This document shows positions 643 to 15,164 of a stretch of DNA of 64,000 bases, piece by piece (position 1 is the stretch's first letter; each line of letters starts with the position of its first letter). The position numbers and the translations under genes are program-made. The stretch is from assembly GCA_903915535.1 (NCBI GenBank), contig CAIWTJ010000290.1, positions 1-64,000 on the forward strand, read 5' to 3'. This DNA comes from Enhydrobacter aerosaccus (GTDB lineage Bacteria; Pseudomonadota; Alphaproteobacteria; Reyranellales; Reyranellaceae). Under the pieces are notes generated by a model. The model had not been told where the DNA came from and did not search any database. It saw nothing but the letters and a program-made list of their open reading frames with translations.

Positions 643-3600
643 ATGTCCCAGATCGTCAGCAGCGGCCAGATCTACACCGTCTCTTCGAGCATCACTGACA
701 TCGGCGACATCGTCCTGAGCGGCGGCAAGGAGATCGTGGCCTCCGGCGGCGTCGCCAATGGCACAACAATCAACAGCGGCGGCTCGGCAACCGTTCTCGC
801 CGGCGGCGTAGCGAGCGGGACGGTCATCTCCGCCGGGGTGACAATCACCGTCAGCGGCGGCATCGCGAGCGGGACATACGCTTCCGGCGGCACCGTGAAT
901 ATCTCGAGCGGCGGCAGCGCCTTGGGCACGATCTTCAACGGCGGCACGGAAAATCTGGGCCCGGGCGTCGACAGCGGTGGATCGCTTGTCTACATGACCC
1001 AGAACATCTTTTCGGGTGGCGTTGCCAGGAACGACACCAACTACGGCGCCTCGCAACGGATCAACACCGGCGGCACCGCAATCGGCACCACTGTGTTCCT
1101 GGGCAACCAATTCCTTCAGGGCGGCACCACCACCGGCACCATCCTCAACGTCAGCGGCATCCAGTACATCTCGTCCGGCGGCGTCGCGAGCAACACCGTC
1201 GTGAACAAAGGCGGCACGCTCGAGGTCTTCGCCGGCGGCGCCTTCACCGGTGCGACCTTCAACGCCGGTGCGACCCTGGCGATCGCCTCAGGCTACAGCG
1301 ACCTCGGTCGCACCGTATCCAGCGGCATGACTGAGGCTGTCCTCTCCGGCGGCAAGACGAGCGGCCTGACGGTGCTCAGCGGCGGCACCGTGACGATCAG
1401 CAGTGGCGCCGTCGCCACCGATGCCAATGTGGCGACCGGCGGTCACGTAACCGTTCTGAGCGGCGGCACTTATGAGCTTACGCCCTTCGGCACGACCAGC
1501 GGTGTTACATTCAGTTCCGGCAGCATTCTGAAAGTCGCCTCCGGATACGCGATGAGCGGCCAGGAGATTGTCTCCGGCCAGATCCTCGCCATCGGCCCGG
1601 GTGCCAGTGCCTCCAATACCGTCGTCGACGCCGGCGCCATCCTGATGGTGTCGTCCGGCGGCACGGTCGACGGCATTGCCGTCGCCGCGGGCGGCACGCT
1701 CGAGCTCATGAGCGGCGCCGCCTACACCAATGCCACTTTCGCCTCGGGGGCGATCGTCGGCATCGGCTCCGGCTTTATCGACAGCGGCAGTCTGGTTCCC
1801 GGCAATGTCGGCGAGGTGATCTACGCCGGCGGCACCAGGATTGTCACGTCCGGCGGTACGGCGAGCGGCACGATCGTCAACAGCGGCGGTGTGGAGAAGG
1901 TGTCGTCGGGCGGCACAGCCAGCGGCATGGTCGTCAACAGCGCTGGCCTCGCAATCGTGTCGGCCGGCGGGACGGCCAACGGCACGCTCCTGACGGTCAG
2001 TGGCCTCCTCAGCAACGGCGGCACACTGAGCGGTACCGTCCTTAGCGGCCACTCCTACGTGTCCGTCACCTCGGGTGGGGCGGCGCTCGATACCGTGAAC
2101 TACGGCACCAGCGTCCTCGCCGTCTACGCGGGCGGCCGGGCGAGCGGAACGATCATCAACGATACCGCATCCGAATACGTTTCGGGCGGCACCGTGACCG
2201 GGACGACTCTCAACAGCGGCTACCAGAATGTCTACGTCGGCGGCGTCGCCAGCGCGACGACCATCAACAGCGGCGGCCTCCAACGGGTTAACTCCGGCGG
2301 CGTGGCAAGTGGCACGATCGTCAACAGCGGCGGCACCCTGGAAATGTTTGCCGGCGGCACGTACACCGGCGCGACTTTCAATCCGGGAGCCATCTTCGAA
2401 CTCGCTGCCGGCTACACCGACACCAGTGCCACCGTGGCGAGCGGCGTCACCGAGATCGTCCTCTCGGGCGCCATCGCTCAGGGCACAGCGATCGCTGCCG
2501 GCGGAACGCTGACGGTCAGCTCGGGCGGCGCCTTCCAGGTCTTCGCCGGCGGCTCCTACAGCGGCGTCACCTTCGCCTCGGGCGGCATTCTTGAGATCAT
2601 GTCGGGCTACGGTATGAGCGGCCTGGAGGTTACCTCGGGCCTGGTCGTCGACGCCGGTCCCGGCGGCACCGTCTCCAACACCGTCGTCGACTTCGGCGCC
2701 ACTCTGATGGTGTCGTCGGGCGCCACGGTCGACGGCATTACCGTCGCCTCGGGCGGCATCCTCGAGATCATGAACGGCGGCACCTACACCAACGCTACCT
2801 TCGCCTCGGGCGCCATCATCGGCATCGGCTCGGGCACCGTCGACAACGGAACACTTGTTCCCGCCGGTGTCACCGAAGCCGTCTACTCCGGCGGCAGCAG
2901 GAACGTCTCTGCCGGCGTTACCTTGAGCGGCGCTATCGTTCATACCGGCGGCAGGCTCTATATCCAGTCGGGTGCCAGCACAAGCAACACCTACGTCGAA
3001 GTCGGCGACTCGTTCGAGTATGTCTCTTCAGGCGGTGTCGCCTACGCCACGAGTGCTACAGGCGGCGGCCGGCAAACGGTGCTGTCCGGCGGCGTTGCCA
3101 GCAACTCATACTTCTTTAACGGCGGCGCGAACATCGTGTCCTCGGGCGGCATCGCGACTGGCACCGTCTTGGTCAACGGTGGTACCGAAAACCTGCGGGG
3201 CGGCCAGCTCATCGGCACGATCGTCAGTTCCGGGGGCGTCCAGAACGTCGGCGGCGGCGGGACATTTGGCACCGCAATCAGCGCAACGCTGCTTTCCGGC
3301 GGTGGCCAATGGGTGTTCTCGGGCAACATCGCCAGCAATACCACCGTCGGCAATGGCGGTACGGAAACGGTTTCCGCGGGTGGCACGACCATCGGCACGA
3401 TTCTTTCCGGCGGCACGGAGATCGTGTCGATGGGCGGCGTTGCCAGCGCCACGACTATCGGCAACGGCGGCATGCTCGTGGTGTCCGGCGGCGATACCAG
3501 CGGTACCGTCGTCAACAGCGGCGGCACCCTCGAAGCGATGGGCTATGCGACACTCGCGGGCACGACCTTCAACTCGGGCGCGGTCTTCGAGGTCGGCTCC

Positions 3601-5400
3601 GGCTACACCGATACCAACGGCACGGTCGCAGCCGGCGTCACCGAAATGGTGCTGTCCGGCGGTGCGGCAGACGGGACGGTCGTGCAAAGCGGCGGCATCC
3701 TCGAAGTCTTCTCTGGAGCCAGCTGGTCGAACGTCACGTTCCAGTCCGGCAGCATCTTCGAAGTCGGCTCCGGGCTTGTGATCAATGCCTCCGACGCTCC
3801 CGTCGGTGCCATGCTCATCGTCGCATCCGGCGGGGGCGTGAGCGGTCTCGGCGTGGGCACCGGCAGCACGCATACGGTGACCTCCGGCACTCTGGCCAGC
3901 AACACCATCCTCTCCAGCGGAGGCACACAAATCGTATCGTCGGGCGGCGTGGCAAGCGGCACGACAGTCAATGCCGGCGCAACATTCAGCGTCAGAGCCG
4001 GAGGAAGCGCACTCTCGACCGTCGTCAGCAGCGGCGGCCTCGTCAACGTTGGCTCCGGCGGAACCTGGAGCGGCACGACGGTATCGAGCGGCGGCAACGA
4101 ATATGTCTCGTCGGGCGGCGTGGCGAGCGGCACGGTGCTGGCCAACGGCGGCTGGCAGACGGTCTACAACGGCGGCAAGGCAAGCGGCACGGTCGTCAAT
4201 AGCGGCGGCATCGACGTCGTGCGCTCCGGCGGCATCATCAGCGGCGCGGCGGTCAACGGCGGTGGCTACCAATACGTATTCTCCGGCGGCCAGGCGGCAG
4301 ACACGATCGTGAGCAACGTCGGCAGGCAGCTCGTGTCGGCCGGCGGCTCTGCCTTGAGGACGATCCTGAGCAGCGGCGGCTGGCAGTACGCCTACGCCGG
4401 TGGCCTGGCGAGCGGTACCACCGTCAGCAGTGGCAGCTACGAAGTAGTGTCCTCGGGCGGCACGGCGAGCGGCAGCATCGTGAGCGCAGGTGGCTGGGAC
4501 TATGTGTTCAAAGGCGGTATTGCGAAAGGCACGGTAGCCTACAGTGGCGGCGTGGAGGTCGTGTCCTCGGGCGGCACGGCGAGCGGCACGATACTCAACT
4601 CGGGCGGCTGGCAGTACATATTCAACGGCGGCACGGCCAGCGGCACAGTCGCCAACACTGCGGGCGTGCTGGTGACCATGGCGGGCGCGCGCGCGTTCGA
4701 CACTCACGTGGCCACCGGCGCTGTCGATGTCCTGTCGTCCGGCAGCACGGATTCGGGCACGGTCGTGAGCCAGGGAGGCTGGCACTACATCCTCTCCAAC
4801 TCGGTCGCCAACGGCGCCACGATCAACGGCTATCAGGTCGTTTCCTCGGGTGGCGTGGCGAGCGGCACGACGCTGGGCAGTGCAGGCTGGCAGTTCATGT
4901 TCAAGGGCGGCACGGCCAGCGGAACGAACATCATCAGTGGCGGCGTGGAAGTCGTGTCGTCCGGCGGCCTGTCGGTAGACACCATGCTGAATTCCGGCGG
5001 CTGGCAATACGTCTCCAACGGCGGCGTGGGCAGCCACACGACGGTGACGAACGGCGGTAACGAAGTCATCGTGTCCGGCGGCATCACACGCAACGACGTG
5101 CTGAGCGCCGGCGGCTGGGAATACGCCTTCAACGGCGGCACGGCGAGCAACACCACGGTGAGCAGCGGCGGCGTCGAGGTCGTCTACTCCGGCGGCGTCG
5201 ACAGCGGCTCGGTCGTGCTGAACGGCGGCGGCGAATACGTGTTCAACGGCGGCCGGACAGAAGGCACCGTCGTGAACAGCGGCGGCGTCGAGTACGTGTC
5301 GGCGGGCGGCACGGCGCACAGCGCCACCGTGAACAGCGGCGGCAGGGAGTATATCTTCAACGGCGGCAGCGCCGGCGACACAACGCTGGCCGGTGGCACG
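643..5400 (+). repeat. Tandem protein-coding repeats (~60 nt period, degenerate), strand-loop-strand type
   Basis: Recurrent GGCGGC..GCGAGCGGCACG..GTCGTCAACAGCGGCGGC units across the ORF. Confidence 0.85.
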
Positions 5401-5769
5401 CTCGAGATCATGAGCGGTGGTACGGCAGGCACGAGCACCATCACCTTCGCGGGCGCGGGCACGCTCAAGATCGATCAATCGAGCAACTTCGGCACGCCGA
5501 CTGTCGCGGGTCTGTCCGACCCGGGAGAGGTTGTCGACTTCGCGGACATTTCCTACGGCTCATCGACCACGCTGGGTTATTCGGGCAACACATTGAGCGG
5601 CACGCTGACGGTCAGTGACGGCGTCCATACGGCCAGCCTGGCGCTGCTCGGCCAGTACGTCGTGGCAAACTTCAATCTCGCCTCCGATGGCCATGGCGGC
5701 ACGCTCGTCAGCGATCCTCCGTTGGCAGGCATGGACGGCCAGCCCTTCCTCACTCAACCCGCTCACTGA
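643..5769 (+). CDS. Giant autotransporter-passenger-like strand-loop-strand repeat protein (AIDA-type repeats), no beta-barrel seen
   Basis: ORF of about 1708 aa made of ~20-aa repeats of type SSGGxASGTxVNSGGxxxV. ATG at 643 has a strong SD (GGAGGGGG); the tracked GTG at 622 is less likely. Lies directly downstream of the heptosyltransferase. Confidence 0.9.
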   Translation: MSQIVSSGQIYTVSSSITDIGDIVLSGGKEIVASGGVANGTTINSGGSATVLAGGVASGTVISAGVTITVSGGIASGTYASGGTVNISSGGSALGTIFNGGTENLGPGVDSGGSLVYMTQNIFSGGVARNDTNYGASQRINTGGTAIGTTVFLGNQFLQGGTTTGTILNVSGIQYISSGGVASNTVVNKGGTLEVFAGGAFTGATFNAGATLAIASGYSDLGRTVSSGMTEAVLSGGKTSGLTVLSGGTVTISSGAVATDANVATGGHVTVLSGGTYELTPFGTTSGVTFSSGSILKVASGYAMSGQEIVSGQILAIGPGASASNTVVDAGAILMVSSGGTVDGIAVAAGGTLELMSGAAYTNATFASGAIVGIGSGFIDSGSLVPGNVGEVIYAGGTRIVTSGGTASGTIVNSGGVEKVSSGGTASGMVVNSAGLAIVSAGGTANGTLLTVSGLLSNGGTLSGTVLSGHSYVSVTSGGAALDTVNYGTSVLAVYAGGRASGTIINDTASEYVSGGTVTGTTLNSGYQNVYVGGVASATTINSGGLQRVNSGGVASGTIVNSGGTLEMFAGGTYTGATFNPGAIFELAAGYTDTSATVASGVTEIVLSGAIAQGTAIAAGGTLTVSSGGAFQVFAGGSYSGVTFASGGILEIMSGYGMSGLEVTSGLVVDAGPGGTVSNTVVDFGATLMVSSGATVDGITVASGGILEIMNGGTYTNATFASGAIIGIGSGTVDNGTLVPAGVTEAVYSGGSRNVSAGVTLSGAIVHTGGRLYIQSGASTSNTYVEVGDSFEYVSSGGVAYATSATGGGRQTVLSGGVASNSYFFNGGANIVSSGGIATGTVLVNGGTENLRGGQLIGTIVSSGGVQNVGGGGTFGTAISATLLSGGGQWVFSGNIASNTTVGNGGTETVSAGGTTIGTILSGGTEIVSMGGVASATTIGNGGMLVVSGGDTSGTVVNSGGTLEAMGYATLAGTTFNSGAVFEVGSGYTDTNGTVAAGVTEMVLSGGAADGTVVQSGGILEVFSGASWSNVTFQSGSIFEVGSGLVINASDAPVGAMLIVASGGGVSGLGVGTGSTHTVTSGTLASNTILSSGGTQIVSSGGVASGTTVNAGATFSVRAGGSALSTVVSSGGLVNVGSGGTWSGTTVSSGGNEYVSSGGVASGTVLANGGWQTVYNGGKASGTVVNSGGIDVVRSGGIISGAAVNGGGYQYVFSGGQAADTIVSNVGRQLVSAGGSALRTILSSGGWQYAYAGGLASGTTVSSGSYEVVSSGGTASGSIVSAGGWDYVFKGGIAKGTVAYSGGVEVVSSGGTASGTILNSGGWQYIFNGGTASGTVANTAGVLVTMAGARAFDTHVATGAVDVLSSGSTDSGTVVSQGGWHYILSNSVANGATINGYQVVSSGGVASGTTLGSAGWQFMFKGGTASGTNIISGGVEVVSSGGLSVDTMLNSGGWQYVSNGGVGSHTTVTNGGNEVIVSGGITRNDVLSAGGWEYAFNGGTASNTTVSSGGVEVVYSGGVDSGSVVLNGGGEYVFNGGRTEGTVVNSGGVEYVSAGGTAHSATVNSGGREYIFNGGSAGDTTLAGGTLEIMSGGTAGTSTITFAGAGTLKIDQSSNFGTPTVAGLSDPGEVVDFADISYGSSTTLGYSGNTLSGTLTVSDGVHTASLALLGQYVVANFNLASDGHGGTLVSDPPLAGMDGQPFLTQPAH

Positions 5770-6025: not shown

Positions 6026-6379
6026 TCACAACGTGCTTCCGGAGGACCCGAGGTCGAGTCGTCCGGCGATCTCGACCGCAAGACAGGTCGCCCGCTCGAG
6101 TTCCGATACGAGCCGCGCGATCGGCTCGGCCTTGCTCAGGCTTTGGCGGCCAAGCCGGTTGGCCGCAAACAACTGGCGCACGACGGGCACGAGATGAGAG
6201 AAGTCCTTCCCCAGGCCGTCGGCGGCAGTGTCCGAGAACGCTCTTTCCGCCCTCTCGACATTCGCCAGCAGCCTCGCCTTCACTTCCGGCGACGCACTGT
6301 CCGGACACTGATCGACACCAGCCAAAGCGAGGAGGTCCGCATCCAGCAGGCAATCGATCATTTCAGCGGCCGTCGTCAT
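6026..6379 (-). CDS. Hypothetical protein (117 aa)
   Basis: ORF with SD-like GGGGAG upstream, divergent from the crp-like gene; plausible helical protein. Confidence 0.5.
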   Translation of the reverse strand: MTTAAEMIDCLLDADLLALAGVDQCPDSASPEVKARLLANVERAERAFSDTAADGLGKDFSHLVPVVRQLFAANRLGRQSLSKAEPIARLVSELERATCLAVEIAGRLDLGSSGSTL

Positions 6380-6442: not shown

Positions 6443-6458
6443 AGTGGCAATTGCCACA
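6443..6458. promoter_or_regulatory. Palindrome AGTGG-CAATTG-CCACA, candidate Crp-family site
   Basis: Perfect 14-bp palindrome GTGGCAATTGCCAC at 6444-6457, 54 bp upstream of the crp-like GTG start. Confidence 0.55.
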
Positions 6459-6510
6459 CTGGGCGCGGCGGTGCAGAAGGGGTCTCGCCAACGTGGGGGA
6501 GGCAGAAATC

Positions 6511-7200
6511 GTGGCTGAAGCCTCAAATATCGGCCGCTTGCGGACGATATCGCTGTTCGAGGACCTGGCAGACCCCGATCTGAACCGGGTCGCGAGCTAT
6601 TGCGTCACCCGGACATATCCGAAGGGGAGCCAAATCCTGACCGAGGAGGACGAGAGCACCGACGTGCTCTTCATCCTCGAGGGAACCGCGCGCATCAGCA
6701 GCACGACACCCGGTGGAAAAGAGGTCATTTTCAGCGAATTGGGCGCCGGAGACATCACCGGGGAGTTCGCGGCCGTGGACGGTCTGCCGAGATCGGCATC
6801 GGTAAGCGCGCTCACCGATTGCCTGGCCGCACGAATGACGTCGGCAAATTTCATCAAGATGATGAATACGACACCGTCTGTGGCCACCAAGCTGGTGGAA
6901 CTGCTGGTGGTGAAGATCCGGCGCCTGTCGGAACGCGTGTTCGAGGTGAGTGCCCTCTCGGTGCGTGAGCGTGTCCGCCGCGAGCTGCTTCGCCTGGCGG
7001 CCGAAGGGACGCCCATGGGCAAAGGCGTCGTGATACGGCCCGCCCCTACGCATTATGAAATCGCCGCGCGCATAGGATCGCATCGCGAGGCGGTGACCCG
7101 CGAATTCAACCGCCTGGAGGAGAACCGGATTGTGGAAATCCGGCGGCGGCAGATCCGCATCGTCGACCTCGACCTCCTGAGATTCGACGAATCTACCTGA
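6511..7200 (+). CDS. Crp/Fnr family transcriptional regulator
   Basis: Cyclic-nucleotide-binding fold (GDITGEFAAVDGLPRSASV) and C-terminal HTH (THYEIAARIGSHREAVTREFNRLEENRIV). GTG start at 6511 with SD GGGGGAGG; the tracked upstream extension to 5998 is unlikely. Confidence 0.88.
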   Translation: MAEASNIGRLRTISLFEDLADPDLNRVASYCVTRTYPKGSQILTEEDESTDVLFILEGTARISSTTPGGKEVIFSELGAGDITGEFAAVDGLPRSASVSALTDCLAARMTSANFIKMMNTTPSVATKLVELLVVKIRRLSERVFEVSALSVRERVRRELLRLAAEGTPMGKGVVIRPAPTHYEIAARIGSHREAVTREFNRLEENRIVEIRRRQIRIVDLDLLRFDEST

Positions 7201-7206
7201 CGCGTG

Positions 7207-7222
7207 TGTGGCAAACGCCACA
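7207..7222. promoter_or_regulatory. Palindrome TGTGG-CAAACG-CCACA, candidate Crp-family site
   Basis: Same inverted repeat as at 6443; starts 7 bp after the crp-like stop codon. Confidence 0.55.
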
Positions 7223-7293
7223 GATGCCGTTCCCCCTACCTGCGACAGTCCGCCCGGGAAAGCCGTGGCAATCGCGGGAAGGGAAGACCGACA

Positions 7294-7488
7294 ATGCAGA
7301 CCGACATGCACCGGGACGGAGTTGGCCGAAACCTGTTCACCCGAATGATGGAAGCGCTCGGGTCACATTTCTTGAGGAAGCCGTCCGCTTTGGAGACGCG
7401 GCTCGAGCCGCTGCCCACCGACGCGCTGGTGCGGCCGTCCATGCACAACCGCGTAACGATCCAGATTCATCATGAAGATTGGCCCTGA
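7294..7488 (+). CDS. Small hypothetical protein (64 aa)
   Basis: ATG at 7294 with SD GGAAGGGAAG; the upstream GTG in the track is less likely. Confidence 0.5.
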   Translation: MQTDMHRDGVGRNLFTRMMEALGSHFLRKPSALETRLEPLPTDALVRPSMHNRVTIQIHHEDWP

Positions 7489-7498
7489 GCCTCGGTCA

Positions 7499-8596
7499 TC
7501 ACCCCGGAAGCAGATCGCCTGCTTGCAGCTCACTTACGGCGGCATCGATGCGCCGGACCGCGGCCCGCACCATTTCCAGGCCGCGGCGATTGCCGGTGTC
7601 CATGCCGCCCGTCGTGAAGATCGCGACGAACAGGCCGCACAGGACGGCGAAGCGATAGGCCTGCCAGCAATCGTCGAAGCTGAAGCCTGTCACACCCGTG
7701 CGCAGCAGCGTATCGTGATAGCGCCGCAGCAGCGCTTGCTCGGCCTCGCGTCGGTAGTCGGTCGGCACGCTGTTGCAGATCAGGTAGGCGACGTCGTAAA
7801 GCGGGCCGCCGCGGCCGGAGATCTGCCAATCGACCGCGGCTATTCCGTCTTCGCCCAGGGCCGGCCCGAAAAGCAGATTGTCGGCACGAAAGTCGCCGTG
7901 CACGAAGGTTCGCGCGCCCGAGGCCATCTGCTTGATTGCGCGGGCGGCAACGGGCGCCAGCGCCTCTGCCGTCCTTTTCGTATAGTCGCTGTAGCAATCG
8001 GCGAAATTGCCGAGGGCCGGCGCGAGGAAGGCCTGGTAGCCGCTTTGCAGGGCGGCGCCATACTGCGGACCGGCAAAATCGAACAGCGAGTCCATGTCGC
8101 CGGAATCGACCTTGCCCCACCAGGTGCCGTGCAGGCGCCCGAGCGCCGCAATCGCCGCCTCGGCTTGCGCCGGGGCGAGGCCCGCGACCTGATCGCCCAT
8201 CGTCGCGCCGCCCAGATCCTCGAGCAGCAGCAGGAAGCTCTGGTCCGGCATGTCGAGTTCGGCATGAAACAGGCGGGGCGTGCGGATCGGCGAGTACTGC
8301 GCAAGCTTCGTATAGAAGGCCACTTCGCGCGGGTAGAAGTACAGCGCGCGGGCGACACCGAGGTTCACCGGGTCGGTGGTCGGGAACTTGCCGATGAGGC
8401 TTGCCGGAGCGCCGCTGTCGGCCTTGTCATAGGTGATCGACAGTCGCGAGACATCGGCCATGATGCCGACACCCTCGCCCAGCTTGTCGGCGACGACGGC
8501 AGCGATTCTCGCGCTCGAAATCACGCCGCTGCGCCGCAGGACAGCATCGAGCCACTCGGCATTCATTGCCGTCGAATTCCTGGGCCAATCGGCCAT
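7499..8596 (-). CDS. Phosphotransferase family protein (aminoglycoside phosphotransferase/ecdysteroid-kinase-like fold)
   Basis: FVHGDFRADNLLF and AAVDWQISGRGGPLYDVAYLI kinase-like motifs. Confidence 0.82.
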   Translation of the reverse strand: MADWPRNSTAMNAEWLDAVLRRSGVISSARIAAVVADKLGEGVGIMADVSRLSITYDKADSGAPASLIGKFPTTDPVNLGVARALYFYPREVAFYTKLAQYSPIRTPRLFHAELDMPDQSFLLLLEDLGGATMGDQVAGLAPAQAEAAIAALGRLHGTWWGKVDSGDMDSLFDFAGPQYGAALQSGYQAFLAPALGNFADCYSDYTKRTAEALAPVAARAIKQMASGARTFVHGDFRADNLLFGPALGEDGIAAVDWQISGRGGPLYDVAYLICNSVPTDYRREAEQALLRRYHDTLLRTGVTGFSFDDCWQAYRFAVLCGLFVAIFTTGGMDTGNRRGLEMVRAAVRRIDAAVSELQAGDLLPG

Positions 8597-8793
8597 CTCG
8601 CCCCCGCCGCTGCAGTCTCAGCCAATCTGCGATCCATCAGATGGCCGGATGTTGAAAGGATTATTGCCGCGCAGTGCGGGTCGAACAAGCCAAGACCCTG
8701 GCAGCGCGTGGCAGCACCGTCGATGGCAAAACATTGCGCAAGACACCCGCAAAGCGGGCATGCACACTATAGCTTCGGGGGAGCATTCAAAGC

Positions 8794-9834
8794 ATGACGG
8801 GCTCGTCAGCCATTTTCGATACATCGACGCTGGAAGTGGTTTGCCAGGGGCTTGGATTCCCCGAGGGACCGGTCGCCATGCCGGACGGAACGATCCTTCT
8901 CGTCGACATCAAGAAGGAATGCGTGACACGCGTCCGGCCCGACGGCAGCCAGCAGCTCGTGGCGAAAGTGCGCGGCGGCCCGAACGGCGCCGCTATTGGA
9001 CCGGATGGCCGGCTCTATATCTGCAACAACGGCGGCTTCGACTGGGCAGCGATGCCGTTGCCGGGTGGGCAGATCATCACCGTCGGCGAGCATCAGGCCG
9101 CCAACTACGAGGGAGGCTCGGTGCAGGCGCTCCATCTCGACAGCGGGAAGCTCGAGACGATTTACACCGACTGCCAAATCAGCACCGACATGTCCGGCCT
9201 CGGCACGCGCGCGCCCAAGGAGCTGCCAATGCGCTCGTCACTGCGCGGCCCCGACGACCTGGTATTCGATGCGGCTGGCGGCCTCTGGATCGCCGATTTC
9301 GGCAAGTCGAGACCGCGCGACCGTGACACGAGCGGCGTCTACTACGCCCATGCCGACGGTTCCTGTATTCGCGAGAAAATCTTTCCGCTCGATGGGCCGA
9401 ACGGCATTGCGCTCTCTCCGGCGGGCGACCGCCTGTATGTCTCCCTCACCTTTCGGCGGCAGCTCCTCTACTGGGAGCTCGACAGCCCCGGCAGCATCCG
9501 CCCCAACCCGGCGACGATCGACGGCGCCTACGTGCTGAACGCCGCCATGCCCGGCGACCTCGATTCCATCAAGGTCGACGAACAGGGCAACATCTACGTG
9601 CTGACGATCCTCCGGCAGAAGTCGCCTTTCTGCAACGGAGGCGTGACCGTGATCTCCCCGACGGGCGAGATCATCGAGTTCTTCGAGATTGCCCTTCCCG
9701 GAAAGTTCGTTCCGATGCCGTCGAACATATGCTGGGGCGGACCCGATCGCATGACGGCCTACATCACCTGCGGCGGGTCCGACATGCTGGTGAAGGTACG
9801 GACGTCGATTCCCGGCCTCAAGCCGCGCTTCTAA
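8794..9834 (+). CDS. SMP-30/gluconolactonase/LRE family protein
   Basis: FPEGPVAMPDGTILLVDIKKECVTRV, GPNGAAIGPDGRLYICNNGG, GPDDLVFDAAGGLWIADFGK, DGPNGIALSPAGDRLYV. Confidence 0.85.
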   Translation: MTGSSAIFDTSTLEVVCQGLGFPEGPVAMPDGTILLVDIKKECVTRVRPDGSQQLVAKVRGGPNGAAIGPDGRLYICNNGGFDWAAMPLPGGQIITVGEHQAANYEGGSVQALHLDSGKLETIYTDCQISTDMSGLGTRAPKELPMRSSLRGPDDLVFDAAGGLWIADFGKSRPRDRDTSGVYYAHADGSCIREKIFPLDGPNGIALSPAGDRLYVSLTFRRQLLYWELDSPGSIRPNPATIDGAYVLNAAMPGDLDSIKVDEQGNIYVLTILRQKSPFCNGGVTVISPTGEIIEFFEIALPGKFVPMPSNICWGGPDRMTAYITCGGSDMLVKVRTSIPGLKPRF

Positions 9835-9858
9835 GACTACGACACCAAGGAAAAGCAG

Positions 9859-12828
9859 ATGGGCTATTCAACGCAGACACCCCCGGCCGGCCAACTTGGC
9901 AAGACGCGGTTGATCACGTTCCTGCAGATCGTGGCGATGGTGCTGCGGACCGGCGTGCGGATGCGCGGACAGCACGGCAGGATTCATGGCTGCGTCCGGG
10001 CAACATTCGAGGTGCTCGACAATATTCCCACCAAGTACAAGGTCGGCATCTTCGCGAACCCTGGGACGTATCAGGCGGCGATCCGTTTCTCGAGCGGTCC
10101 GCAGGCCAAGGACACCATTCCTGGCGCGCAGGGCATGGCGATCAAACTGATCGGCGTGCCAGGTCAAAAGATCCTGAAATCGGAAGCAGATGCCGTCACG
10201 CACGACTTCATCCTGCTCGACTTCCCGGTCTTCTTCGTGCGCGAGACGGATTCCTACAAGCGCCTGGTGGTGGAACTTGCCAAGCTGAAGCCTGGTGCGG
10301 AGCCGGTGCAATGGCTCGAGTGGCTGGGCAAGTCCCATCCTGACGACGTCGCGATCGCCAAGAGATACGACGCCCGCGTCGTCGACAACCCGCTCACCCA
10401 GAGTTTCTACAGCCAAGTGCCGTACTCCTTCGGACTGGGCGATGACACGATCTGCCGCTACGGTGCCCTGCCCCATCCCGAGAACACGAATCCCGCGCCG
10501 ACGCCGCCGGGCGCCGATGGCAACTACTTGCGGCGGGTGATGATCGACCATCTCACGACCGCGGCGCGGCCGGCGACGTTCGACTTCTGCGTCCAGCTGC
10601 TGGAGGGCGCGACGCCGGAGGATATCGACAGTCCCACCGTCGAATGGAACACGCCCTATCAACGCGTCGCCACCATCACGGTGATGGCGCAGGACTTCGC
10701 CCAGCCCGATCAGGACCGCTTCGGGCAGAGCCTGGCGTACACGCCGTGGCACGCCCTGCCCGAGCACCGGCCTGTCGGGCAGATCAATCAGATCCGCCTC
10801 ATGGTCTACAAGTGGAGCTCGCGCGTTCGGCATTTCTTCAATCTCCGTCTCTTTCAGAAGGAACCGACGAGCGCCGTTCCTCCGAAGCCGACGGGTAGTT
10901 GCCTGGGACGTGTCGTGAAGTACACCGCTCTGGCGGCAGCCGCTTCGATTGCGATGATCGGCTGGTTCCTGTGGCCGAAGCTCCATGTCGACCTGCCCAC
11001 CTATCCCGCCGTCGAAAAGCAGGTCTGGCTGGAGCAGCAGTGGCAGCCGGGCGAGCGCGAGTGGTATCACCATGCGAGCCAAGGCGGACAATTCCCGCCG
11101 ATGATCAACGTGCCGTACGAGTGGTTCATCGCCCTCGAGCAACCGGTGCTTTCGCTCGGCGCGGCAGGCCTCCTCTCCGATCAGGCCTATCTCGATCGCT
11201 TCGGATATATCCCGTCGACCACGGAGAGCGGCGCTTTCAACTGGAGCAGCTGCGCCGAACCAGATGACTCGAAAGGCTACGAAAAGGGCAAGGAGCTGCT
11301 GGCCTGGCGCCATCGCCTGCCCGTGGGCTTCGCGTGCAGCGACCGGCACAAGGATCCGATGCTCTCTCCCGACGGCAAGCCATGGCGGCATCCGGCGACT
11401 GGCGGAACCATGGGCAAGCTCGGGCTGACCTGCGCCGCCTGCCATACCGGCCGTTTCACCTATGGCAACACCGAGTTCCTCGTCGACGGCGGATCGGCGA
11501 TGACCGACGTCATCAAGCTGAACAGCGCGATTGCGCTCGCCTTGGTCTATACAAAGGTGGATTTCCTGAGGTTCAACCGGTTTGCACTTCGGTTGCTCGG
11601 TCCGGATGCGAACAACGAGACGGCGCGATCGGTGCTGCATGCGCAGCTCGATGATGTGGTCGGGCGGGTCTTCACGTTGCAGAAGCTGGACGGCAAGGCC
11701 AATCCCAACGGCGACACGGAAGGATATGGGCGACTCGACGCCCTGAACCGGATCGGCAATCAGGTCTTTGCGATCGACCTCGGCAAGCCCGAGAACTACG
11801 TCGGCAGCTCGGCGCCCGTCCACTATCCCCGCATCTGGGACGTGCCGTGGTTCGCCTGGGCGCAATACAACGGCTCGATACGGCAGCCGATGGTGCGCAA
11901 CGCCGGCGAGGCGTTCGGTACAGGAACTCCCATCGTCCTCACGGGCGACCCCGCGCTGACGGCGCCGCAATTCAGCTCTTCCGTCCAGGTTCACACGCTG
12001 GTCAAGATGGAAGATCAGCTCGCCGGCACGGAGCCGAACGCAACCGGGGGCAAGAAGGGCTTCACCGGTCTCATTGCTCCCAAGTGGCCCGACAAGGTCC
12101 TCGGTGCCATCGATCCGAAGCTCGCCGAGCAGGGTGCCAAGCTCTACAACGACATCTGCGCGCACTGTCACTTGCCGCAGGTCGGGACCGAGGCCTTCTG
12201 GAGCTCGAAGAACTGGATGAACAAGGATGGGGTCAAGCAGCCCTACCTGGATGTGAATCTGATCCCGGTCGAGGAAGTCGGCACCGACCGTTCGCACGTC
12301 GATGACCTTGCCGCCCGAAGGGTCAGTCTCCCGCCCGACCTGAAACTCCCCAGCGACTCTTTTGCCGAAGCGTTGCGAGACGTGGTCGGCCGTGCCGTGA
12401 AGCGTTGGTACGAAACGCAGACGCCCCCGGTGCCCGACAAGCAGCAGGACGAAATGAATGGCCATCGGCTCAACGAGGTCGCCGCCAATCTCAGCTACAA
12501 GTCACGGCCGCTCGACGGCATCTGGGCGACACCACCCTACCTGCACAACGGCTCAGTACCCAATATCGACCTCCTGCTGTCGCCGCTCGCCGACCGGCCG
12601 AAGAAGTTCTGGCTGGGCCATCGCGAGTACGATTCCAAGCGTCTGGGCTACGTGTACGACAAACTGCCGGGTGGGTTCGAGTTCGATACCAGCAAGCGCG
12701 GCAACTACAATATCGGCCATCTGTTCGATGACGCCCCGGCCGATGGGACGAAGATGCCGGGCCGCATCGGCCCCAAGCTCAGTCCGGATGATCGCCGCGC
12801 ACTGATTGAATTCCTGAAGACGCTGTAA
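9859..12828 (+). CDS. Catalase-like domain fused to a C-terminal di-haem cytochrome c (peroxidase/RoxA-like) domain
   Basis: N-terminus: GRIHGCVRATFEV, AAIRFSSG, QGMAIKL, PVFFVRE. Then a TM stretch (YTALAAAASIAMIGWFLW), then CAACH and CAHCH haem motifs and DGIWATPPYLHNGSVPNIDLLL. Confidence 0.82.
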   Translation: MGYSTQTPPAGQLGKTRLITFLQIVAMVLRTGVRMRGQHGRIHGCVRATFEVLDNIPTKYKVGIFANPGTYQAAIRFSSGPQAKDTIPGAQGMAIKLIGVPGQKILKSEADAVTHDFILLDFPVFFVRETDSYKRLVVELAKLKPGAEPVQWLEWLGKSHPDDVAIAKRYDARVVDNPLTQSFYSQVPYSFGLGDDTICRYGALPHPENTNPAPTPPGADGNYLRRVMIDHLTTAARPATFDFCVQLLEGATPEDIDSPTVEWNTPYQRVATITVMAQDFAQPDQDRFGQSLAYTPWHALPEHRPVGQINQIRLMVYKWSSRVRHFFNLRLFQKEPTSAVPPKPTGSCLGRVVKYTALAAAASIAMIGWFLWPKLHVDLPTYPAVEKQVWLEQQWQPGEREWYHHASQGGQFPPMINVPYEWFIALEQPVLSLGAAGLLSDQAYLDRFGYIPSTTESGAFNWSSCAEPDDSKGYEKGKELLAWRHRLPVGFACSDRHKDPMLSPDGKPWRHPATGGTMGKLGLTCAACHTGRFTYGNTEFLVDGGSAMTDVIKLNSAIALALVYTKVDFLRFNRFALRLLGPDANNETARSVLHAQLDDVVGRVFTLQKLDGKANPNGDTEGYGRLDALNRIGNQVFAIDLGKPENYVGSSAPVHYPRIWDVPWFAWAQYNGSIRQPMVRNAGEAFGTGTPIVLTGDPALTAPQFSSSVQVHTLVKMEDQLAGTEPNATGGKKGFTGLIAPKWPDKVLGAIDPKLAEQGAKLYNDICAHCHLPQVGTEAFWSSKNWMNKDGVKQPYLDVNLIPVEEVGTDRSHVDDLAARRVSLPPDLKLPSDSFAEALRDVVGRAVKRWYETQTPPVPDKQQDEMNGHRLNEVAANLSYKSRPLDGIWATPPYLHNGSVPNIDLLLSPLADRPKKFWLGHREYDSKRLGYVYDKLPGGFEFDTSKRGNYNIGHLFDDAPADGTKMPGRIGPKLSPDDRRALIEFLKTL

Positions 12829-12853
12829 CGGGCTCGCCCGCCACTCCGGCCAG

Positions 12854-14644
12854 TTACTCCGGCACACCGGCCTTGCGCAGGCCGGCGGCAACGCGCTCAC
12901 GCTGCGCCAGGAACGTGGGGTGGTCGCTCGCGGCACCGGCAAGGTAGCGGCGCATCGTAAAATTCGGATTGAGGCCCAGCCCGGCCTGAATCGCGTCGCG
13001 CGCTTCGTCCATACGGTCGAGGTTGGCCAACGCTGCCGCGAGCAGGAAATAGGTGTAAGGGTTGTTGCGGTTGAGCGCGATCGCGCGGCTCAGTCGCTCG
13101 ACGGCCTCCTGGTCCTTGCCGAGGAAAAGCTTGGCGTCGCCTGCGATCGACATCCAGGCGGCGACGAAGGAATCGCGCGGGCTGAGGCGCAACGCCTCCG
13201 CGACATGGGCCTCGGTCTCCTCGCTGCTGCCGATACGATACTTGGCGAGGCCGATCATGGCGTGAGCTGGAGCGAGATTGCGGTCGATCGCCAGCGCCCG
13301 CTCGCATTCGGCGATCCCCTGCACCGCGCGCTTCGTCTGGATCAGGACCAGGCCCAGCGACAAATGGGCCCACGCGTGCTCGGGCACCAGCGACAATGCC
13401 TTGATTAGCGCCGTCTCGGCGGTGGCCAACCGCTCTGCCCGGTCGTCGCCCGCGTACAGGGAAGCCTTGAGCGTGTCGACATAGGCGCCCCACACCAGCG
13501 CCTCGACGTTGCCGGGGTCGAGCGCCAAGGCGCGCTCGAAGTAGTCGCGCGCCTGCACGAGATAGTCGGGTGTATTGCCTTTGTTGAGCGACGCCATGCC
13601 CTGGAAGTACAGATCGACGGAATCGGGATTGGGCGCACGCTCCGCCCGCCGTGCCTCGACCCCGATCAGCTCCGTTCCCAATTGCCTGGCGAGGCGCGTG
13701 ACGATTTCATCCTGCATGTCGAAAAGATCGCCGACAGGCTTGTCGAAGCGCTCGGCCCAGAGATGATTGCCCGTGCCCGCATCGATGAGCTGGACGTTTA
13801 CCCGCATGCGGTCGCTGCGGCGCTGCACGGAGCCTTCGAGCGCATAACGCGTGTTCAGTTCCTGGCCGACTTGCGTGACGTCGACCGATTTGCCCTTGTA
13901 GGTGAAGGCCGTATTGCGCGCGATCACGGTCATACCGCTCATGCGCGAGAGGTCCGTGGTCAGGCTTTCGGTCACCCCGTCGACAAAATATTCCTGCTCC
14001 GGGTCGCCTCCGATGTTCGCGAACGGCAGGACCACGATGGAAAGTCGCGGCGGCGGTGCCTTCCATGGAGTGGCGGCTCGCGGCGATATAGCGTCGGCCG
14101 CCGGCGGAGGCCAGTCTTCGGCTTTCCATTCCACGCGGAAGGCACGGATGGGCCGCTGGATGTTCTTGAGCGAGAGTTCGCCCATCGGATGAAGCGTGGC
14201 CTTGAGCCGGCCGTTGACCGCCTCGCGCACCGCACGCGAGACGACAATGCCGCCCGGCGGCGCCTCGGTCTCGAGGCGGGCCGCCACATTCACGTCGTCG
14301 CCGTAGATGTCGTTCTCGTCGACGATGACATCGCCCAGATGGAGGCCGACCCTGAACAGGATCGCCGTGTCTTCGGGCTCGCCGCGATTGACTTCCGCCA
14401 TCGCTTGCTGGAATTCGATGGCCGCGGTGAGCGCGTCCACGGCGCTCGTGAATTCGATCAGGCCGCCGTCGCCTTTCAGGCGAATCACCCGCCCGCCGTG
14501 ACGCGCAACGGCCGTTCCCAACCGTTGGCCCATGTGCTCGAGAAGACGCGCAACCGTCCCGCTCTCGTCACGGCCCATCAGTCGTGACGATCCAACCGCG
14601 TCCGCAAACAGGATCGCCGCCAGCCTGCGTAGCTCACGCGCCAA
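12854..14644 (-). CDS. Class III adenylate/guanylate cyclase with TolB-like region and TPR repeats
   Basis: AAILFADAVGSSRLM, KGDGGLIEF, IYGDDVNVAARLE (metal Asp residues and Asn/Arg present); then LSIVVLPFANIGGDPEQEYFVDGVTESL; C-terminal TPR-like repeats. Confidence 0.88.
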   Translation of the reverse strand: MARELRRLAAILFADAVGSSRLMGRDESGTVARLLEHMGQRLGTAVARHGGRVIRLKGDGGLIEFTSAVDALTAAIEFQQAMAEVNRGEPEDTAILFRVGLHLGDVIVDENDIYGDDVNVAARLETEAPPGGIVVSRAVREAVNGRLKATLHPMGELSLKNIQRPIRAFRVEWKAEDWPPPAADAISPRAATPWKAPPPRLSIVVLPFANIGGDPEQEYFVDGVTESLTTDLSRMSGMTVIARNTAFTYKGKSVDVTQVGQELNTRYALEGSVQRRSDRMRVNVQLIDAGTGNHLWAERFDKPVGDLFDMQDEIVTRLARQLGTELIGVEARRAERAPNPDSVDLYFQGMASLNKGNTPDYLVQARDYFERALALDPGNVEALVWGAYVDTLKASLYAGDDRAERLATAETALIKALSLVPEHAWAHLSLGLVLIQTKRAVQGIAECERALAIDRNLAPAHAMIGLAKYRIGSSEETEAHVAEALRLSPRDSFVAAWMSIAGDAKLFLGKDQEAVERLSRAIALNRNNPYTYFLLAAALANLDRMDEARDAIQAGLGLNPNFTMRRYLAGAASDHPTFLAQRERVAAGLRKAGVPE

Positions 14645-14811
14645 AATTAAGTGCCCCCATCTCCGGGGATGGTAGAGCGATACCCGCAGACGGGCAACGG
14701 GCAGGGGGCAGTCTAAGCTATTGAAACAATTGGACTATCCGAACCACAGCGCGCAGTTGCAGAAGCGCGGCCGCCAGCCACCCACCGAAATCGTCGGTTC
14801 GACTAGCCGAG

Positions 14812-14827
14812 TGTGACAAAGGCCACA
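14812..14827. promoter_or_regulatory. TGTGA-CAAAGG-CCACA, candidate Crp-family site
   Basis: Third copy of the TGTGR-N6-CCACA pattern, between the cyclase (minus) and the 91-aa ORF (plus). Confidence 0.5.
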
Positions 14828-14888: not shown

Positions 14889-15164
14889 ATGATGAACATT
14901 CTCAATCGGCCGATGGTCAAGGAAGCATTGGTCCTCGTCCTTTCCGGCGTGATCTCCGCGATGGTCTGCGGCCGGGTCTATGCGGCAACGCCAACGGACG
15001 CCGAGCAGGCCGCCGCGCCCGCCGCCACAACCACCACCCCGGCGCAGGGTCAGTACGCCACCCAATTGGCGCCGATGTCGAAAGAGGAAGGCAGGCAGAT
15101 GTTGCTGTCGTCGTTCTTTGGCCAGGTTCCCCTCGCCGCTCCGACGCCGGCGGCCGGTCGTTAG
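14889..15164 (+). CDS. Small putative secreted/membrane-anchored protein (91 aa)
   Basis: ATG with SD AGAGGGAGAC; hydrophobic N-terminus EALVLVLSGVISAMVCGRVYAA. Confidence 0.6.
   Translation: MMNILNRPMVKEALVLVLSGVISAMVCGRVYAATPTDAEQAAAPAATTTTPAQGQYATQLAPMSKEEGRQMLLSSFFGQVPLAAPTPAAGR

Follow-up and report, generated by a model that had tools for sequence, protein, structure and literature searches.

The three palindromes A, B and C found in the analysed stretch of 64,000 nucleotides (the window) probably serve a small local regulon, which comprises the Crp-type protein encoded beside them, the promoter of its own gene, the small genes s64 and s91 and, as the likely source of the signal, a nearby class III nucleotide cyclase. 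We give this reading, which builds on the sites themselves, their rarity, clustering and conservation, the residues of the protein and a recurring gene neighbourhood, a probability of about 0.68. Binding, its dependence on a cyclic nucleotide, the direction of regulation and a control of the cyclase are the parts that we infer: the cyclase of the window would make a cyclic nucleotide, likely as the local source, and the Crp-type protein, presumably with a cyclic nucleotide bound, would recognize TGTGR-N6-YCACA through its RE...R helix. Site A would then act on the crp promoter (autoregulation), site B on the promoter of s64 and site C on that of the probably exported s91, where the positions of B and C make activation likely. 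Furthermore, site C may also act on the divergent cyclase, which would result in a closed feedback loop.

All three palindromes lie exactly where the original prediction had placed them, beginning at 6443, 7207 and 14812, and none is assigned to a strand. Site A (AGTGGCAATTGCCACA, 6443-6458) sits between the divergent o117 and the crp-like gene and is a probable autoregulatory operator. Site B (TGTGGCAAACGCCACA, 7207-7222) follows the crp stop codon by 6 bp and precedes the ATG of s64 by 71 bp, and site C (TGTGACAAAGGCCACA, 14812-14827) leaves 61 bp to the ATG of s91 on one side and 167 bp to the TTG of the divergent cyclase on the other. Measured from the centre of each site, the distances to the start codons are 60.5 bp for crp (GTG at 6511), 79.5 bp for s64 (ATG at 7294) and 69.5 bp for s91 (ATG at 14889), in agreement with the predicted values of about 60, 80 and 70 bp. 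The form TGTGG-N6-CCACA, which had been ascribed to all three, holds exactly for site B, whereas site A begins with A and site C reads TGTGA. Altogether, A-C are very probably operators, and the predicted sites most likely belong to the adjacent Crp-type protein.

This protein (6511-7200, + strand, GTG start, 229 aa) carries a cNMP-binding domain (PF00027, 1.6e-19) followed by a Crp-type helix-turn-helix (HTH_Crp_2, PF13545, 5.9e-14), both above cut-off, and its closest solved structure in the PDB is E. coli CRP (1e-18). The dN/dS of its gene, in comparison with the close relative G036, is 0.08. In an alignment to E. coli CRP of 18 orthologues from the genus, Arg180, Glu181 and Arg185 of the recognition helix (SHREAVTRE) are invariant in 18/18, as are Gly71, Glu72 and Arg82 of the pocket, and Ser83 is present in 16/18, with all four pocket residues found in the window protein. 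The RE...R spacing and the GE/RS pocket, which had both been claimed earlier for the window protein, are thus present and invariant or nearly so, and their combination occurs in this protein only among the Crp/Fnr proteins found in the genome. The adenine-contacting pair Thr127/Ser128 is absent, being replaced by Leu-Ser in the window protein and by Met-, Leu- or Ala-Ser in the orthologues, which keep Ser128. This replacement of Thr127 weakens the claim of a cAMP specificity like that of E. coli CRP; cAMP is the presumed ligand. A score of 82.6 bits against a cut-off of 266 for the NCBIfam CRP equivalog NF008732 places the protein outside the E. coli-type global CRPs. The search for relatives of the locus that used the Crp protein gave one locus.

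The cyclase (12854-14644, - strand, TTG start, 596 aa) resembles other class III cyclases with C-terminal TPR repeats, relatives of which occur throughout the genus. It combines a PF00211 catalytic domain (2e-12) with TPR repeats and keeps, according to the alignment, both metal-binding Asp as well as the transition-state Asn and Arg (FADAVG, GDG, VNVAAR). Unlike usual class III cyclases, the proteins of the window and of G036 have Arg at the substrate-specifying Lys, a column set by alignment only, whereas the G081 orthologue and the protein of G014 have Lys; hence, the product of the window cyclase is uncertain.

A cyclase stands beside or in series with crp in three separate arrangements. 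Besides that of the window and G036, there is a rearranged cluster in G081, in which crp is followed after about 200 bp, on the same strand, by the orthologous cyclase (77%). Of the other window genes, this cluster has s64 and those for the kinase (80%), the lactonase (81%) and the cytochrome protein (66%). The class III cyclase upstream of crp in G028 is another one, with zinc ribbon, AAA and MalT-type TPR domains; about 27 bp lie between the end of its gene and crp, which has the same orientation, such that cyclase, crp and operator follow each other in series. Two further loci have an operator immediately in front of a cyclase: in G012, G032 and G014, TGTGGCAATCGYCACA precedes a membrane class III cyclase, with a divergent exported-type protein opposite (in G012, 29 bp separate it from the called start of the cyclase), and TGTGAGTTCTATCACA of G014 precedes a TPR cyclase by 66 bp. 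Over five genomes (about 40 Mb, 98 sites, 269 cyclases), we counted four sites in the 250 bp before a cyclase, representing two independent loci, where an estimate by hand gives about 0.17 if sites were evenly spread and about 0.7 if each site stood ahead of one gene. With so few independent loci, this association of sites with cyclases is suggestive, not conclusive. The gene caller sometimes took antisense frames (L099, L154), and these cases were checked by hand. That a class III cyclase repeatedly neighbours the regulator or the operator is supported by these observations.

The three cyclase-crp arrangements, together with the operators directly ahead of cyclases at the two other loci, speak against the most serious competing explanation, namely that the operators belong to the Crp-type protein but the cyclase is incidental, with the regulator reading the pooled output of many cyclases, or another ligand, and without any local feedback loop. 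We nevertheless rate this explanation at not far below even odds. The genome has 23 class III cyclase matches, no cyclase was seen beside crp in 14 of the 18 orthologous loci, and G020 has no gene for the membrane cyclase but still carries the operator in front of the other divergent gene. The replaced Thr127 of the regulator points in the same direction, as does the position of site C, which, at 61 bp from s91 and 167 bp from the cyclase start, may or may not control the cyclase. The local cAMP-Crp circuit originally proposed, with enzyme and receptor sharing one operator, finds support in the shared operators, the likely autoregulation of crp and the recurring cyclase neighbourhood, but not in the placement of site C, which suits s91 better, nor in the residues at Thr127 and the substrate Lys, both of which are replaced.

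For the small regulon with its nearby cyclase as we propose it, the relatives provide further evidence. In G036, the Crp of which is 95% identical, sites A, B and C are the same letter for letter; the intergenic regions show 36 changes in 468 bp, all of them outside the 48 operator bases (P = 0.017), and at site C the 16 bp as well as 3 flanking bases on each side are unchanged. Scoring sites by their matches to the 10 specified motif bases, we found that 10 of the 18 orthologues, which are related and thus do not represent 10 independent events, have a 9/10 or 10/10 site in the 250 bp preceding crp; among random windows of 250 bp drawn from these loci, the share is 1.3%. Next to the unchanged site A of G036, eight other orthologues have an equivalent of this quality, and at least three distinct sequences (AGTGGCAATTGCCACA, TGTGGTATTTCTCACA and TGTGAGATTTGTCACA) agree with the motif in this position. 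G082 and G081 have 8/10 versions, and the latter counts against our reading, given that G081 has the same gene cluster and only this weak site upstream of crp; no good site was found in the 250 bp scanned in G006, G005, G073, G069 and G028. The conservation of sites upstream of orthologues, which the original prediction had named as a check, was confirmed for crp in the former 10 genomes and failed or was weak in the remaining eight. Since sites of 9-10/10 recur upstream of crp in these 10 orthologues although their letters have diverged, there is good evidence that crp would be autoregulated via its upstream operator.

Site B, too, has an equivalent outside the closest relative. In the distant relative G028 (53-55% identical), TGTGGGAAACGCCACA, which shares 15 of 16 bases with it, is located shortly after crp, and the gene that starts about 74 bp further on encodes an animal-type haem peroxidase with no relation to s64. 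That the operator persists with another gene downstream argues strongly for the operator as the functional unit. The position of the operator follows the crp gene across the genus, and none of the other Crp/Fnr proteins found in the genome has the RE...R helix, which together make it improbable that the palindromes serve another transcription factor that uses a CRP-like palindrome as its operator, even though binding by the Crp-type protein is itself a prediction and some orthologues have no good upstream site.

How rare and how clustered the motif is was assessed in the whole genome (5,807,854 bp) by exact and one-mismatch pattern searches. TGTGRC-N4-GYCACA occurs exactly at two places, which are sites B and C only, and TGTGR-N6-YCACA at four, which are B and C, at a distance of 7.6 kb from each other, and two sites elsewhere. 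The exact motif is not abundant genome-wide, as this count of four is below both that of the reversed pattern (6) and the first-order Markov expectation (about 11). What the genome-wide scan envisaged earlier did reveal is clustering in the window: the probability of at least two exact sites in 64 kb is P = 0.0009, with the pattern picked beforehand from the same window, and that of at least four one-mismatch sites of the stricter pattern, likewise picked from this window, is P = 0.0002. With two mismatches allowed, 60 matches in the window compare with 70.6 expected, which is background, so that only the strict form is informative. The other one-mismatch loci fetched with the stricter pattern are mostly intragenic; the exceptions, on contigs C10, C110, C89 and C166, include none upstream of a relevant gene, and a search for a Crp site upstream of the kinase/lactonase pair found none. 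Loose matches at background and a genome-wide count not above the control are what chance palindromes picked by eye would give, but the clustering of exact sites in the window, their letter-for-letter conservation in G036, the conserved though diverged sites of other orthologues and the retention of site B in G028 make this explanation very unlikely.

In genomes of the genus that have the regulator, copies of the motif and of its reversed control number 114:65, as opposed to 32:61 in those without it (Fisher 6e-6); the high motif count of G004 is partly due to a repeated element, which was collapsed before this test. Other Crp paralogues may be part of the source of this enrichment in larger relatives (e.g. 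G012, L112). In G012, other Crp-type genes, about 34% identical or less to the window Crp, have a CRP-like palindrome close by (L112 position 1151 and L114 position 2516), which points to parallel Crp circuits in larger genomes. In the same genome, TGTGGCGTTCCTCACA (C105, L106 position 2523) is located 79 bp beyond the end of the gene for a Cache-HAMP class III cyclase, not ahead of it. G004 contains six exact copies of TGTGACCTAGTTCACA (C1, C13, C17, C167, C221 and C263) and near-identical ones in C73 and C199, and this sequence is probably a dispersed repeat rather than a set of operators.

Both presumed targets, s64 and s91, are by their conservation real genes. The 64-aa protein s64 (7294-7488, + strand), the probable target of site B, ends in PSMHxRVxIxxHxxDWP and is conserved to 92% in G036. 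Its gene status follows from a dN/dS of 0.17 in its own frame, where the two alternative frames give 1.1 and 2.3, and from a distant copy beside crp in G081 that shares this tail. The probable target of site C, the 91-aa s91 (14889-15164, + strand), probably carries a signal peptide, as judged from reading its sequence, and its status as a gene rests on 92% conservation in G036 and a 66% paralogue elsewhere in the genome. This paralogue (G000:C247:5077-5337; L087, L125) and a counterpart in G001 (G001:C28:154512; L084) have a different promoter, with GAAACCAAAT common to both, and no operator was found upstream of either; the operator is thus specific to the s91 copy in this cluster. These comparisons suggest that the s91 of the window arose by duplication and then gained its operator. 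The divergent partner of crp, o117 (6026-6379, - strand, 117 aa), is kept in relatives, with tblastn matches of 42-57% beside crp in seven of them and of 93% in G036 (dN/dS 0.22), and has no match in Pfam and NCBIfam.

The closest known system is Clr of Sinorhizobium meliloti with CyaD1/CyaD2/CyaK and the targets smc02178, smc02177 and cyaF2 (PMC5498481, PMC10127613). There, clr lies near cyaD1 and its target smc02178 (PMC5498481), and Clr directly controls the cyclase gene cyaF2 and eight small proteins of at most 100 aa, six of which have signal peptides (PMC10127613). In the window, the gene of an alphaproteobacterial Crp-type receptor is likewise close to those of a class III cyclase and of an uncharacterised probable target, the genome likewise has many cyclases, and s91 with its probable signal peptide recalls a Clr regulon that is rich in small signal-peptide proteins and has one cyclase, cyaF2, as a direct target. 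By direct reading, each of the sites A, B and C matches the Clr core motif GTNNCNNNNGNNAC (PMC10127613), but at position 4 of the fuller consensus HGTYHCNNNNGRWACA (PMC5498481), which calls for C/T, all three have G. Furthermore, the Thr-Thr pair (140-Thr-Thr) by which the Clr pocket takes both cAMP and cGMP corresponds to Leu-Ser in the window protein, and the Clr structures 7pza/7pzb match the window Crp at 9e-17, below E. coli CRP. An assignment of the regulator as Clr was rejected, as neither the fuller consensus nor the Thr-Thr pair is found. The neighbourhood also differs, with haem peroxidase/cytochrome, lactonase and kinase genes in the window, and the genome has the exact motif at no more than four positions. 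The Clr-type layout of a cyclase beside the regulator with small exported targets is nonetheless found in the arrangements of the window, G028 and G081. The locus may work like a Clr circuit and is a possible rather than an established member of this group.

With E. coli CRP, the window regulator shares the domain order, the RE...R helix, the GE/RS pocket residues and the TGTGR-N6-YCACA site. E. coli crp is autoregulated, and the window locus would resemble it in this respect. Unlike E. coli CRP, the window protein has Leu for Thr127 and Lys for Arg123 and is apparently a local rather than a global regulator. An unusual feature of the locus is its very small, locally clustered set of sites.

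Many alphaproteobacteria have dozens of class III cyclases, and the locus bears on how each of them finds its own receptor and target genes. With one receptor, three operators, one adjacent cyclase and natural rearrangements in relatives, it constitutes a small testable case, supplies two uncharacterised small proteins as probable targets and links the circuit to haem peroxidase/di-heme cytochrome genes. A more far-reaching proposal, which we regard as tentative and on balance doubtful, is that of a private second-messenger module: in a genome with 23 class III cyclase matches and a single canonical Crp-type receptor, one cyclase and this receptor would together serve a regulon of only about three promoters. 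The linkage would have been rebuilt several times in the genus, with the cyclase in series with crp, the operator ahead of different cyclases, or the operator kept and the downstream gene swapped, and in two lineages the module would stand beside secreted-type haem oxygenase/peroxidase genes.

Between s64 and the cyclase, the window encodes an APH/EcKL-like kinase (7499-8596, - strand; PF01636 6e-20, PF02958 6e-18; 80% in the G081 cluster), an SMP-30/gluconolactonase-like protein (8794-9834, + strand; PF08450 1.5e-31; 81% in G081) and a 989-aa protein (9859-12828, + strand; 66% in G081), the C-terminal part of which is di-heme cytochrome c peroxidase/RoxA-like (NF040606 3e-130, PF21419 6e-16). 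The N-terminal part of the latter is catalase-family-like by eye, and the unusual fusion is kept in G081 along with the lactonase and the kinase. Directly upstream of the cluster, 643-5769 encodes a 1708-aa strand-loop-strand repeat protein, which is like the passenger repeats of AIDA-I/Ag43-type autotransporters (TIGR04415, 36 repeats).
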